A stretch of DNA of 41,115 nucleotides from positions 1 through 41,115 of the forward strand of contig JADFWU010000025.1 of the NCBI GenBank assembly GCA_015234045.1, in the 5' to 3' direction. Origin of the DNA: Magnetococcales bacterium (lineage in GTDB: Bacteria > Pseudomonadota > Magnetococcia > Magnetococcales > JADFWU01). How positions within the stretch are numbered: position 1 is the stretch's first letter; the number at the start of each line of letters is the position of its first letter. Positions 32,714-39,657 of this stretch are shown here, piece after piece. The notes beneath the pieces are model-generated. The model was not told the DNA's origin. It made no database searches and worked only from the letters and a program-made list of their open reading frames with translations. Both the position numbers and the translations under genes were made by a program.

Positions 32714-33496
32714 CTATAATGCAGGACCAGTAGAGTGAGCAGATGGAGTGGAATTAGCGCTGTTTTTCAGTATGGATTCACATTCAGATGTTTCATCGGA
32801 TTTAGGATGGGCACAGAACCGATATCCCACGCCCCAGATGGTTTCCACATACTTTCCGGCATCACCCAACTTTTCACGCAGACATTTAACATGGGCATCC
32901 ACTGTGCGGGTTTGTACAAACGTGTCGGAACCCCATATTTCATTGAGTAATTTTTCCCGGCTTTTGACCTGGCCGGGGCGGGCCATGAATGTGCAGAGCA
33001 TTTTGAATTCGGTGTGGGTCAGAGAAACCTCTTGACCCTGAACCCATGTCTGATGCGCGTCATGATCAACCGTCAATAGACCAAACTTGATTTGGTGCTT
33101 CTCTATTTTTTTTTCTGGTTTTGTCCGGCGTAGAATGGCACGAATGCGTAGAAGCAGTTCACGGAGTTGGAACGGTTTGACAACATAATCATCTGCGCCT
33201 ACTTCAAAGCCGATCACTTTGTCAATCTCCTCACCTTTAGCCGTAAGGATTAAGACCGGAATGGCACTGGTATGGACATTTTCTCGTATGCGCCGACACA
33301 CTTCAACACCATAAATACCGGGTAACATCAGATCCAATAACACCAAGTCCGGGTATGGTTCCGTGAGTGCGTGTCTCAATCCGTCTTCTCCGGTGAGGGA
33401 CGAGGTGGTGTCATAGCCTTCGCGCTTAAGATTATACTCAAGTGTGGTGATGAGATCTTGCTCATCTTCAATAATAAGAATCCGGTCCTTGGTCAT
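32714..33496 (-). CDS. phoB1: PhoB-like response regulator, second copy
   Basis: OmpR/PhoB-type response regulator of 260 residues. The receiver domain (about 1-120) has acidic pocket E10/D11, phosphoacceptor D55 (LLDLMLPG), T85 and K107. The DNA-binding winged helix (about 135-230) contains HTEFKMLCTF and TRTVDAHVKCLREKLG. A Ser/Thr/Ala tail of about 25 residues is shared with phoB2. It is highly similar to phoB2 along its length. The gene has its own upstream block homologous to the pstS upstream block and a leader containing pstB remnants whose frame ends in the ATGA start overlap. No phoR kinase gene is nearby. Functional difference from phoB2 is unknown; the receiver and HTH residues look intact in both. 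Confidence 0.92.
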   Translation of the reverse strand: MTKDRILIIEDEQDLITTLEYNLKREGYDTTSSLTGEDGLRHALTEPYPDLVLLDLMLPGIYGVEVCRRIRENVHTSAIPVLILTAKGEEIDKVIGFEVGADDYVVKPFQLRELLLRIRAILRRTKPEKKIEKHQIKFGLLTVDHDAHQTWVQGQEVSLTHTEFKMLCTFMARPGQVKSREKLLNEIWGSDTFVQTRTVDAHVKCLREKLGDAGKYVETIWGVGYRFCAHPKSDETSECESILKNSANSTPSAHSTGPAL

Positions 33497-34062: not shown

Positions 34063-34845
34063 CTATAGCTCGGTACCTGAAGAGTGGGCAGAGGTAGAGG
34101 CGTTGGCACTGTTATCAAGACTCTCTTCGGATTCAGGTGTTTCGTCTGGCTCAGGATCATTACAAAACCGATAGCCTACGCCCCAGATGGTTTCCACGTA
34201 CTTTCCAGCTTCACCCAGTTTTTCACGCAGGCATTTCACATGGGCATCCACTGTGCGGGTTTGCACAAACGAATTGACCCCCCAGATTTCACTGAGCAGC
34301 TTGTCCCGGCTTTTAACTTGTCCTCTACGGGCCAAGAATGTGCAGAGCATTTTGAACTCAGTATTGGTCAGAAAAACCTCTTTCTGCTGAACCCAAACTC
34401 GATGTGCGTCATGATCAACAGTCAAAAAGCCAAAATTGGTTGTACGATTTTCTGGACTATTGTCCGGCTTGGTGCGTCGCAGAATGGCGCGAATACGTAA
34501 AAGCAGTTCACGAATTTGGAATGGTTTGACAACGTAGTCATCGGCCCCCACTTCAAAGCCGATCACTTTATCAATCTCTTCACTCTTTGCGGTGAGGATT
34601 AGAACAGGAATGGAACGGGTTCGGGAATCATCACGAAGACGACGACACACCTCAATGCCATAAATACCGGGCAACATCAGATCCAATACAACCAAGTCCG
34701 GGTATGGTTCTTTAAGTGCGAGTCTTAAGCCGTCTTCTCCGGTGAGTGATGATATGGTGTCATAGCCTTCGCGCTTTAGATTGTACTCAAGCGTGGTGTT
34801 GAGATCTTCCTCATCTTCAATAATAAGAATGCGGTCCTTGGTCAT
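34063..34845 (-). CDS. phoB2: Phosphate regulon response regulator PhoB, copy in the pst operon
   Basis: Response regulator of 260 residues, the same length as phoB1. The receiver phosphoacceptor is in VVLDLMLPG (D55), with T85 and K107, and the C-terminal winged helix has TNTEFKMLCTF and TRTVDAHVKCLREKLG. PhoB activates pst and phosphate-scavenging genes when phosphorylated by PhoR. The start at ATG 34845 is preferred because ATCATGACCAAGGACC is shared with phoB1; a TTG at 34857 is the alternative. It lies 141 bases after pstB2. A hairpin (34932-34969) and an AT-rich stretch with TTGTAA-N17-TTTATA in that gap may give it a separate promoter. phoR and phoU are absent from the window. Confidence 0.93.
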   Translation of the reverse strand: MTKDRILIIEDEEDLNTTLEYNLKREGYDTISSLTGEDGLRLALKEPYPDLVVLDLMLPGIYGIEVCRRLRDDSRTRSIPVLILTAKSEEIDKVIGFEVGADDYVVKPFQIRELLLRIRAILRRTKPDNSPENRTTNFGFLTVDHDAHRVWVQQKEVFLTNTEFKMLCTFLARRGQVKSRDKLLSEIWGVNSFVQTRTVDAHVKCLREKLGEAGKYVETIWGVGYRFCNDPEPDETPESEESLDNSANASTSAHSSGTEL

Positions 34846-34931
34846 GATGCTACCCAATCATTTGTAAAGCGTTACATTTTGTTGTGTATAAAATAATAAA
34901 AACAATGCATTACAATAATTGGAAGAGGGCG

Positions 34932-34986: not shown

Positions 34987-35784
34987 TCAGCCATAACGGC
35001 CTTCGATATAATCTGCGGTCTCTTTTTGTTGCGGATCGGAGAAGACTTTTTCAGTGCCACCATGTTCGATCATTTTGCCCATCAACATGAAAATGCACTC
35101 ATCACTGGCACGGCGGGCTTGGGCCATGTTGTGTGTTACGATCAGAATTGAATACTCACCGCGCAGACGCCAAATCAACTCTTCAACGGCTTCCGTTCCT
35201 TTTGGATCAAGTGCGGAACAGGGTTCATCCATCAACAGTACTTTCGGTTTGACCGGCAGAAGTCGGGCAATGCAAAGTTTCTGTTGCTCTTCCAGAGAAA
35301 GGAATGTTGCTTTGTCGTTGAGCCGGTCTTTAACCTTGTCCCACAACACCACCTCACGTAGCGATTTCTCAACAATGTCATTTTGCTCACTGCGAGAGAG
35401 TCGTTCCGATTTCTCATTGTGAATATGCCAACCAAACAGAACATTCTGTCTGATGGACAAGGGCAGTGGGTTGGGCCGTTGAAACACCATGCCCACCTGT
35501 TTGCGAAGTTGAGACAGTTCAACATCGCCGTCATAGATATTTTTATCAAAGATCTGGATAGAGCCATTGATGCGAACATAGCCGAGCCGTTCATTGATTC
35601 GGTTAAAGCTACGCAACAGCGTGGTTTTTCCACATCCAGAAGGACCAATCAAAGAGGTGATGATGCCCTCTTTGATGTTGGAATTAATGTCAAACAGCGC
35701 CTGAAAGGTGCCGTACCACAGGTTCATTTCTTCAGTGCGGATGACGTACTTGGCATCATCTGAGCCATGTTCGGTATTGCTCAT
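34987..35784 (-). CDS. pstB2: Phosphate ABC transporter ATPase with degenerate signature (PstB2)
   Basis: Pst-type ATPase of 265 residues. Walker A GPSGCGKTT (Lys 53), Q-loop VFQRPNPLP (Gln 102), Walker B LLMDEPCSALDP (Asp 186, Glu 187) and H-loop VTHNM (His 218) are all intact. The ABC signature, normally LSGGQQQR, reads LSLEEQQK (residues 162-169), so both signature glycines are lost. The DNA is an uninterrupted frame. It therefore has a good nucleotide-hydrolysing half but cannot offer a normal signature to its partner. ATG 35784 has GGAG 5-6 bases upstream; the frame extends 11 codons further. It lies 51 bases after pstB1. Heterodimerisation with PstB1 is inferred from the complementary losses. 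Confidence 0.92.
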   Translation of the reverse strand: MSNTEHGSDDAKYVIRTEEMNLWYGTFQALFDINSNIKEGIITSLIGPSGCGKTTLLRSFNRINERLGYVRINGSIQIFDKNIYDGDVELSQLRKQVGMVFQRPNPLPLSIRQNVLFGWHIHNEKSERLSRSEQNDIVEKSLREVVLWDKVKDRLNDKATFLSLEEQQKLCIARLLPVKPKVLLMDEPCSALDPKGTEAVEELIWRLRGEYSILIVTHNMAQARRASDECIFMLMGKMIEHGGTEKVFSDPQQKETADYIEGRYG

Positions 35785-35835
35785 GATCACTCCGTTGATT
35801 TGCAGAGAGCGGATCAAAAGGATGGGTTGATAGAC

Positions 35836-36606
35836 TCAACCAAAACGCCCTTCGATATAGTCATTGGTTTCTTGGTGTTTAACCCGGCCATTAAACAGAT
35901 CCTTGGTTTCACCAATCTCCACGCATCGGCCATTGAGGAAAAACGCAGTCCGATCCGCCAAGCGTTGTGCTTGTTGAACCAGATTAGTCACCAGAATGAT
36001 GGTCATGTCTTTCTTCAACTCCACCAACACATCTTCGATACGCATGGTGGTGATGGGATCAACAGCAATGGAGAACTCATCCAGCATTAGAAGCGCCGGT
36101 TCTTGAGAGAGTGCGCGGGCAATGGTCAGACGTTGTTGTTGTCCGCCGGAAAGCAGACTGCCAAGCGAGTTCAAGCGATCTTTTACTTCATCCCATAACG
36201 CTGCGCGACGCAGACACCGTTCAACAATTTCGTCCAGATCGTCATTATTGTTCACGCCATTCAGACGTGGTGCCATGGCAACGTTGTTGTAGACTGTCAA
36301 CGGCAGACCCACAGGCAAAGGAAACACAACACCGATCTGACGACGCAGGCCATAGGTGTTTTTCCATTTGCGTACATTGATACCGTCAAACAAAATATCA
36401 CCGGAAACATTCATGTTTTCGGTCATTTGATCCATACGGTTCAGCGCGGTTAAGAAAGATGTCTTGCCACTGTTGGCGGGTCCAATGATGCCGAATATCT
36501 CATTTTTTTGGACATTCAGATTGACACCTGAGATGGCAATGTCATTCCCATAACGAATTTCCAGATTACTCACAGACAGCTGGGAATTTTTCGTGGTATC
36601 TACCAT
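35836..36606 (-). CDS. pstB1: Phosphate ABC transporter ATPase with altered Q- and H-loops (PstB1)
   Basis: Pst-type ATPase of 256 residues. Walker A GPANSGKTS (Lys 48), signature LSGGQQQR (152-159) and Walker B LLMLDEF (Asp 176, Glu 177) are present. The Q-loop is VFPLPVGLP, with Pro 96 replacing Gln, and the H-loop is VTNLVQQA, with Asn 208 replacing the His that is needed for hydrolysis. The D-loop is also changed (SIAVDP for TSALDP). The C-terminal TNDYIEGRFG matches PstB proteins. The start overlaps the pstA stop by 7 bases. With PstB2 it could form a heterodimer with one canonical and one degenerate ATP site. A homodimer would lack a functional H-loop in both sites. Confidence 0.92.
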   Translation of the reverse strand: MVDTTKNSQLSVSNLEIRYGNDIAISGVNLNVQKNEIFGIIGPANSGKTSFLTALNRMDQMTENMNVSGDILFDGINVRKWKNTYGLRRQIGVVFPLPVGLPLTVYNNVAMAPRLNGVNNNDDLDEIVERCLRRAALWDEVKDRLNSLGSLLSGGQQQRLTIARALSQEPALLMLDEFSIAVDPITTMRIEDVLVELKKDMTIILVTNLVQQAQRLADRTAFFLNGRCVEIGETKDLFNGRVKHQETNDYIEGRFG

Positions 36607-37490
36607 TTCTTTGTGCCTCTCAAATACATGCGGAAGGCGATGGATACCGCATTGAGCAGCAATACCAAACCAATCAGCACCAGGGCTACGCCGTAGGGAA
36701 GAGCGTCCGGTACGCCGGGAACCTGTGTGGCAACCACAAACAGATGAAGAGAGAGCGCCATGGTCTGATCCATGATGCTTTCAGGTAAGAATGGCAGGAA
36801 AAAAGCCGCACCCGTGAACATGATGGGAGCTGTCTCACCGACAGTTCGAGACACTTCCAGAATGATACCGGTTAAAATACCGCTGGTAGCGTTCGGTAGA
36901 ACCACTTGGCGAATGGTTTGCCAACGGGTGGCACCCATATTCCAACAGGCGACCCGAAATGAATGTGGAACCGATTGAAGCGACTCTTTGGTGGCCACAA
37001 TCACAACCGGCATGGTCATGATGGCCAAGGTCAATGAGGCCGCTAAAATACTGGTGCCCATACCGGCAAAGATCACGAATGCACCAAACCCATGTAGCGC
37101 ATGCACAATGGAAGGCACGCCCGCCAGGTTGATGATGCAGAGATTGATCAAACGTGTGAACCAGTTGTCCGATGAGTACTCACTGAGATACAGCGCAGCC
37201 GCCACACCCAAAGGTACCGATACCAAAAGCGATACCGCCACCAACCAAATGGTGCCCAGCAGCGCAGGGAAAATACCGCCCTCGGTCATTCCATTTCTTG
37301 GAAATTCAAACAGAAATTCAGAGGACAGTATCGGCCCACCTTTGGCGATGAGTGTTATTAAAATGATGAGCACTGGAGCAATCAGCATCAATGTCATCAT
37401 CAAGAACAGTATTCGCAGAATTTTTTCGTTTTTTTGCTTACGGAGATTGAGGTCCGTAGCAGCATAGATATTGCTGGACATGGCGAGCAT
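36600..37490 (-). CDS. pstA: Phosphate ABC transporter permease PstA
   Basis: Inner-membrane permease of 296 residues with about six hydrophobic helices. It pairs with PstC to form the phosphate channel. The cytoplasmic coupling segment is the EAA-type loop FRVACWNMGATRWQTIRQVVLPNATSGI. The conserved Arg-Glu pair in SRTVGETAPIMFTG corresponds to the residues required for phosphate passage in E. coli PstA. The start overlaps the pstC stop by one base (TAATG); a second ATG three codons later is possible. The stop overlaps pstB1 by 7 bases. Confidence 0.95.
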   Translation of the reverse strand: MLAMSSNIYAATDLNLRKQKNEKILRILFLMMTLMLIAPVLIILITLIAKGGPILSSEFLFEFPRNGMTEGGIFPALLGTIWLVAVSLLVSVPLGVAAALYLSEYSSDNWFTRLINLCIINLAGVPSIVHALHGFGAFVIFAGMGTSILAASLTLAIMTMPVVIVATKESLQSVPHSFRVACWNMGATRWQTIRQVVLPNATSGILTGIILEVSRTVGETAPIMFTGAAFFLPFLPESIMDQTMALSLHLFVVATQVPGVPDALPYGVALVLIGLVLLLNAVSIAFRMYLRGTKKW

Positions 37491-38582: not shown

Positions 38583-39455
38583 TTAGTTACAGGTTACCGC
38601 ACGCGCAGGGGCATAGCCTTTTTTCAGAATGATACACTGGGCTTCGTCAGTCATGATCCAGTCCAGGTATTTTTTTGTTGCGCCTGTTGGTTCTCCGTTG
38701 GTGTACATAAACAGAGGTCGGGCGATGGGATAGCTGCGATCACTGGCTGTGGCAACACTTGGATCGGTGCATTTTTCACCTTCTGCCTTGTTAATACAGG
38801 CCATTTTTACATGGGGAGTGGCGTAGGCCAGACCGGAATATCCGATTGCACAGGGGGTATGCTCTACAAGATCAACCACATCTTTGGAGCCATGCATGTC
38901 CCGAGTGCCCAATTTGTAGTCCCGTTTTTTGCCGAGAACCGCTTTACGGAAGTAGGCGTAGGTACCAGAATTGTTCTGGCGGCTGACCAAGACCATTTTC
39001 TGGCTCTTGCATCCCGGGACTTCAAGACCCAACTGAGTCCACTTGCTGATCTGACCATCTTCACCGTAAATCTCAGCCAATTTGGCAAGGGAGATGGATT
39101 TCATAGGATTGTTTTTATGGACATAAACCGCCAGAGCATCATAGCCGACAATATGTTCCATTGGCTCAATGCCGCGTTTTTTGGCAAGTTTCAGCTCTTT
39201 TGCTTTAATGGAACGGCTTGCATTAGCAATATCAACAGTGCCGTTTACCAATGCTGCGATGCCGGTGCCTGAGCCTCCACCTGTCACCGCTACGGCCACT
39301 TTGGGCTCAACCTTTTGATACTCTTCAGCCCAGGCTTGAGCCACGTTAACCAGTGTGTCTGACCCTTTGTTCTGAATCATGACGCGGGCATCAGCAGCTG
39401 TGCTGAACCCAATGCTACCAGCCAACAATGCCATGGCTATTTTGAACTTTCTCAC
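38583..39455 (-). CDS. pstS: Periplasmic phosphate-binding protein PstS
   Basis: Substrate-binding protein of 290 residues. A signal peptide (about 1-22, cleavage after ADA) is followed by the PBP_like_2 fold. Phosphate contacts are likely at GSDT, GGGSGTG, ASRSI and the RQNNSGTYAYF segment. The start is GTG 39455, with AAGGAG 7 bases upstream and a family-like MRKFKIAMALLAG beginning; 41 additional upstream codons are open but would hide the signal peptide. The sequence contains four Cys residues near the C-terminal third (CAIG, CINK, CTDP, CIIL) plus others that could form disulfides. First gene of the pst-pho operon. Confidence 0.95.
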   Translation of the reverse strand: MRKFKIAMALLAGSIGFSTAADARVMIQNKGSDTLVNVAQAWAEEYQKVEPKVAVAVTGGGSGTGIAALVNGTVDIANASRSIKAKELKLAKKRGIEPMEHIVGYDALAVYVHKNNPMKSISLAKLAEIYGEDGQISKWTQLGLEVPGCKSQKMVLVSRQNNSGTYAYFRKAVLGKKRDYKLGTRDMHGSKDVVDLVEHTPCAIGYSGLAYATPHVKMACINKAEGEKCTDPSVATASDRSYPIARPLFMYTNGEPTGATKKYLDWIMTDEAQCIILKKGYAPARAVTCN

Positions 39456-39657
39456 GTTTAAACTCCTTATATTGATTGATATCGTCCATTCGAACATATT
39501 TAGCGTGCTTGTCTCGATATTTAATATCTTAAGATTGTAAAAAGCTAATATCTTGATCCTTTTCCAGACCTGTTTCATTATGCTAAAAGCTATGAGGATT
39601 CGCTGTATACCGTTGAGGTCAGAGCAAGCGACGGAGCAATGCTATTAATGAAATATT

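Follow-up and report, generated by a model that had tools for sequence, protein, structure and literature searches.

In textbook accounts of phosphate uptake and sensing, the importer is Pst, usually depicted with a homodimer of the ATPase PstB. The pst operon on contig JADFWU010000025.1 of a Magnetococcales bacterium (41,115 nucleotides, here called the window) encodes two adjacent PstB-family ATPases, each of which has lost motifs that the other keeps. The question raised by this locus is whether these losses mark two failing copies of one gene or two parts of one asymmetric pump. A preliminary description of the window had proposed the second answer, and the evidence assembled here supports it: judging from the sequences, this type of Pst importer is likely to be driven by an obligate PstB1:PstB2 heterodimer docked on PstC:PstA, in which one ATP site matches the consensus and the other is degenerate.

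Motifs of the two tandem ATPases

Both open reading frames (ORFs) are uninterrupted, and the features that define the pair are the following.

35836-36606, minus strand: PstB1, PstB-family ATPase of 256 amino acids, with Gln replaced by Pro in the Q-loop and His by Asn in the H-loop, an intact LSGGQ, and DEFSIAVDP after Walker B
36319-36321, minus strand: PstB1 Q-loop codon, Gln to Pro (residue 96)
36139-36153, minus strand: PstB1 signature LSGGQ, intact (LSGGQQQR)
35983-35985, minus strand: PstB1 H-loop codon, His to Asn (residue 208)
34987-35784, minus strand: PstB2, PstB-family ATPase with Q-loop and H-loop intact and the signature LSLEEQQK
35287-35301, minus strand: PstB2 signature LSLEE, degenerate

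PstB1 reads GPANSGKT at Walker A, VVFPLP at the Q-loop, LLMLDE at Walker B and VTN at the H-loop; the corresponding motifs of PstB2 are GPSGCGKT, VFQ, LLMDEP and VTH. Reading of the ORFs, together with alignments of both proteins to Escherichia coli PstB (9k3x) that are free of gaps at the motif positions, confirmed that PstB1 combines the Pro and Asn replacements with an intact signature and that PstB2 retains its Q-loop and H-loop beside an altered one. Walker A, Walker B and the catalytic Glu were legible in both ORFs, as had been stated. PstB1 is further changed in that Phe replaces the Pro following the catalytic Glu and the D-loop is altered (DEFSIAVDP for DEPCSALDP; IAVD for SALD). For PstB2, the ATG at 35784 is a likelier start than the TTG at 35817 to which the ORF extends.

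Family scans ranked PstB first for both proteins by a wide margin over other families, and TIGR00972 (PstB) was the best NCBIfam family over the full length, with 316 bits for PstB2 and 281 bits for PstB1, both under the curated cut-off of 343.2. By these scores the two are PstB-like, divergent proteins that NCBIfam would not name via TIGR00972. The AlphaFold model of PstB1 has a confident ATP-binding cassette (ABC) ATPase fold (pLDDT 87.6), with E. coli PstB (9k3s/9k3x) as its best matches in the Protein Data Bank (PDB).

The same genome carries a second pst operon on another contig (C45), whose pair has identical motif residues. Between the two operons, the ratio of nonsynonymous to synonymous substitution rates (dN/dS) was approximately 0.12 for PstB1, which indicates that PstB1 is under purifying selection; for PstB2, dS was saturated.

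Co-occurrence, distribution and descent of the pair

The two sets of lesions had been expected to occur together in tandem pairs, and this was borne out across the non-identical loci collected: 131 combined a Q/H-defective (B1-type) with a signature-defective (B2-type) protein, 16 had two intact tandem PstBs, 41 had a single intact PstB, and none had a defective PstB with an intact tandem partner. These are counts of loci rather than lineages, some being near-identical or derived from one genome read twice. Of the full type, 124 pairs are complete; their B1s all have Pro at the Q-loop, Asn at the H-loop and LSGGQ (or LSGG and an unread base), and their B2s all have an intact Q-loop and H-loop with L-x-L-E in the signature; the GG of the signature is replaced in all complete B2s. 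Milder pairs from Planctomycetota and Gemmatimonadota obey the same division of defects, with Q to A (once S) and H to N in one member and LSGEQ, LSAEQ, LSPEQ, LSLEQ, LSGEA, LTPEQ or LLPDE as the signature of the other.

Loci with one member only were explained by contig or locus ends, except for L032 in genome G025. This candidate for a B1 without B2 was rejected, because the B2 is present on a separate contig of that genome, among unrelated genes and with its LSLEE intact, so that both lesions are kept. Two single rows with the signature LSAGQ (L167 and L190) are more distant ABC proteins outside the B1 and B2 lineages. Six of the 131 pair loci encode a third protein defective in both respects, and one encodes an additional normal PstB on the other strand. 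In Poribacteria, a third PstB-like ATPase with a defective Q-loop and H-loop and a partly defective signature (LSIGQ, LPTGQ) lies downstream of the pair at these positions.

L109, 6605-7441: third PstB-like ATPase
L111, 6869-7690: third PstB-like ATPase
L112, 6486-7283: third PstB-like ATPase
L114, 6693-7496: third PstB-like ATPase
L120, 6360-7145: third PstB-like ATPase

About half of the 48 genomes of the window's class encode a B1-type protein at 70-77% identity, and others have a normal PstB at approximately 40%. A scan of named genomes with the patterns RAALWDEV and GGQQQRLT added 80 loci at 57-75% identity, carried by Candidatus Thiodiazotropha, Thiotrichales, Accumulibacter, Dechloromonas, Magnetococcales, Planctomycetota, Gemmatimonadota, Acidobacteriota, Verrucomicrobiota, Poribacteria, Desulfobacteraceae and others. 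By record title, Gamma- and Betaproteobacteria, Desulfobacterota and Bacteroidota/Rhodothermota are also represented, for a total of at least seven phyla, most carriers being metagenome assemblies in which single taxon labels may be wrong. Within Planctomycetota, 17 of 149 sampled genomes encode a B2-type protein.

In trees built without the motif columns, the Q/H-defective proteins occupy one side of a branch (98/93) and the signature-defective proteins form one clade (99/94); each set of lesions therefore arose once, or nearly so, and repeated independent origin was rejected in favour of one origin per lineage. Both lineages fall among or beside standard PstBs in these trees, which were rooted on one more distant homolog (L167) with other ABC families left out. 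Many Gemmatimonadota loci (L151-L163, L185-L187) encode tandem PstBs with intact motifs, the upstream copy usually having an altered D-loop (DEPTASLDP); descent of the pair from these was rejected, since the trees separate them from B1 and B2. Distances in the B1 and B2 trees were correlated, as expected of a unit travelling together: r was 0.92 for 32 pairs and 0.84 for those of the full type, and none of 5000 permutations reached as high a value. The two ATPases thus probably go back to an early duplication inside the PstB family and have been passed on, by inheritance and by transfer, as a unit. Going beyond what the preliminary description knew, the comparison places the pair as an old, widespread type of Pst that is not peculiar to the window organism.

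A normal PstB elsewhere that might serve PstC and PstA would have spoken against the proposal, but a family search of the window genome (93% complete) returned no PstB over the TIGR00972 cut-off, and a third, normal PstB was therefore rejected there. Searches of two single-chromosome records, CP070838.1 (Thiotrichales) and CP059264.1 (Dechloromonas), gave no PstB besides the pair, so B1 and B2 must supply the Pst ATPase in those organisms. Five genomes (G402, G405, G408, G409 and G018) have a normal PstB in addition to the pair. Several relatives from the window's order (G007-G012), two of them nearly complete (G007 and G012), gave no PstB match at E<=1e-55 and may lack Pst altogether.

A predicted asymmetric dimer and its alternatives

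In an ABC dimer, each ATP site combines the Walker A and B motifs, Q-loop and H-loop of one subunit with its partner's signature (PMC7756269), and this layout places the two sets of lesions on opposite sides of one composite site. The Walker A/B motifs, Q-loop and H-loop of PstB2 would thus meet the LSGGQ and D-loop of PstB1 in a single consensus site that hydrolyses ATP, and the Walker A/B motifs of PstB1, accompanied by Pro and Asn instead of Gln and His, would face the LSLEE of PstB2 in a degenerate site altered in three motifs. A complete site would be missing from either homodimer. The PstB signature mutation Q160K of E. coli, which alters both sites of the homodimer at once, renders Pst nonfunctional (PMC5775613). 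The degenerate site probably binds ATP and holds the dimer together with little or no hydrolysis, and perhaps one ATP is hydrolysed per cycle; both suggestions are drawn by analogy from exporters. The physical heterodimer, the activities of its sites and the ATP stoichiometry are what we infer from these sequence comparisons.

Several points weigh against this picture. PstB1 retains its catalytic Glu (DE in all complete B1 rows), and the site on its side could keep slow hydrolysis. Given the single origin of each set of lesions, the approximately 130 pairs are not 130 independent trials, and correlated trees can also result from co-transfer of one operon without physical contact between its products. 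The GGQQQRLT pattern of the named-genome scan favours B1s with an intact signature, a requirement from which the profile searches were free. A natural fusion of B1 and B2 in one ORF was not found among the collected loci, and the single-chain model of PstB2 was of low confidence (pLDDT 65), too poor to use.

Other explanations fit parts of the evidence. If a PstB2 homodimer tolerated the changed signature, PstB1 could be an accessory or regulatory paralog, much as in Enterococcus faecalis, whose tandem PstBs comprise a required PstB2 and an accessory PstB1 that excess PstB2 can replace (PMC12096839); a regulatory role would also suit the finding that the conformation of E. coli PstB signals via PhoU (PMC5775613). 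We find this improbable, since both E. faecalis proteins are motif-intact, both sites of a B2 homodimer would contain LSLEE (the Q160K signature mutant of E. coli is nonfunctional), and B1 accompanies B2 always, even unlinked in G025. Nor would an accessory B1 be expected to hold LSGGQ invariant together with an invariant Pro and Asn. A heterodimer with ATP hydrolysis at both sites, whose deviations would be tolerated or would tune the rate, deserves somewhat more weight and is still rather unlikely: some H-loop replacements in MRP1, including Asn, retain transport (PMC7756269), but here the Q-loop, H-loop and signature of one composite site are altered jointly, with no reversion in approximately 130 pairs. 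Such motif losses can be a sign of decay, and the additional normal PstB of the five genomes named above would suit a pair of decaying duplicates, future pseudogenes beside a working PstB. That the lesions are invariant across phyla, that B1 is under purifying selection and that the window genome and the two single-chromosome genomes have no other PstB make decay extremely improbable.

The degenerate site might instead serve mainly in signalling, with the altered face of B1 as a docking point for a PhoU-fusion protein, which would be compatible with the heterodimer. E. coli PhoU binds PstB (PMC5775613), and most pair operons encode, upstream of pstC and next to pstS, a PhoU carrying a fused C-terminal domain similar to low-molecular-weight phosphatases without the catalytic CX5R. 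However, both operons of the window genome carry the pair although a search of that genome gave no PhoU above the TIGR02135 cut-off, and two genomes with milder pairs (G545 and G450) gave no PhoU match; a mainly signalling role therefore has, in our judgement, a fairly low probability.

If the heterodimer with one consensus site is real, an old lineage of this kind amounts to a natural experiment that asks whether import depends on hydrolysis at two sites, and its milder relatives display stages of the change. With two small soluble subunits and one substrate, the pair would also be well suited to clean tests of what a degenerate site does. In automated annotation the two genes are either labelled "PstB" or fall short of the family cut-off, which conceals possibly different energetics in organisms from wastewater, the sea and symbioses. 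A broader suggestion, which we regard as possible but somewhat doubtful, is that these systems, including those of Candidatus Accumulibacter and Dechloromonas, form an unrecognised and widespread class of high-affinity phosphate importers that would spend one ATP per transport cycle rather than two and keep the second site for structure or signalling.

Neighbouring genes and known systems

The remaining genes of the window operon and those directly downstream are as follows.

38583-39578, minus strand: PstS-family phosphate-binding protein, TIGR02136 over cut-off; PF12849
37490-38431, minus strand: PstC permease, TIGR02138 over cut-off
36600-37490, minus strand: PstA permease, TIGR00974 over cut-off; coupling-helix region RVACWNMGATRW, characteristic of pair operons
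34063-34857, minus strand: PhoB-like response regulator directly downstream of PstB2; best NCBIfam match TIGR02154 (PhoB), below cut-off
32714-33496, minus strand: second PhoB-like response regulator; best NCBIfam match TIGR02154 (PhoB), below cut-off

A layout with pstS, pstC and pstA beside the two ATPase genes is common to the relatives. The coupling helix of PstA reads FREACWNMGATRW in pair operons and LREAALALG beside normal PstBs, and that of PstC differs less between the two kinds of operon. The changed PstA helix suggests that each of the two ATPases has a fixed position, perhaps with B1 sitting on PstA, which is a guess. The two PhoB-like regulators are closely similar, follow one another downstream of the pst operon and are probably a local duplication.

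The C-terminal domain of the PhoU fusion resembles low-molecular-weight phosphotyrosine phosphatases, and the protein may be a pseudophosphatase sensor. Its gene was located at these positions.

L225, 5891-6976, minus strand: PhoU fusion
L226, 7599-8714, minus strand: PhoU fusion
L228, 3606-4667, plus strand: PhoU fusion
L229, 4603-5703, plus strand: PhoU fusion
L235, 4090-5268, plus strand: PhoU fusion

The fusion is absent from both pair operons of the window genome (38431-38583 in the window; 12445-12583 in L011). Leftover PhoU-domain matches in this genome belong to reading frames of 602-644 amino acids, possibly Na/phosphate cotransporters. Loss of PhoU as the cause of the pair was rejected, as most pair genomes have a PhoU.

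Among characterized systems, E. coli PstSCAB (9k3s, 9k3x, 9k3y) belongs to the same family and has the same subunits (PstS, PstC, PstA and PstB), and its PstB is the closest PDB match to B1 and B2 by sequence and to B1 also by predicted fold. It has one pstB gene, however, and both sites of the modelled homodimer are intact, whereas the systems described here have two divergent PstBs with complementary losses. Adjacent pstB genes in one pst operon also occur in Firmicutes (PstB1/PstB2 of E. faecalis, PMC12096839; PstBA/PstBB of Bacillus subtilis, PMC11466899), but both proteins are motif-intact in E. faecalis and each is defective here. The asymmetry had been put forward as nonstandard for Pst importers, and in keeping with this no account of complementary losses or of a degenerate or heterodimeric PstB was found in the literature, with subscription papers and preprints outside the coverage.

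The pattern itself is shared with CFTR, TAP, MRP1, TM287/288, BmrCD and Pdr5, which have one consensus and one degenerate site, the signature being lost in one nucleotide-binding domain (NBD) and the H-loop or other elements in the other; likewise, the signature deviates in B2 and the Q-loop and H-loop are lost in B1, within the same composite site. The degenerate signature of Pdr5 (LNVEQ, with an altered H-loop) is similar to the LSLEQ of milder pairs (PMC7756269). These systems are exporters or channels whose NBDs are fused to transmembrane domains, and most of the exporters also change the Walker B Glu of the degenerate site, a common though not universal feature; PstB1 keeps it. The sugar and nucleoside importers RbsA and NupO are also reported to have one degenerate ATP site (PMC11466899), but they belong to another importer family, carry both NBDs on one polypeptide and have lost the Walker A Lys. 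The peptide importers DppDF and OppDF are Type I systems with two different NBD subunits, each with its own permease (PMC12136057), and differ from the arrangement proposed here in that both subunits of E. coli DppDF can hydrolyse ATP (PMC12136057).
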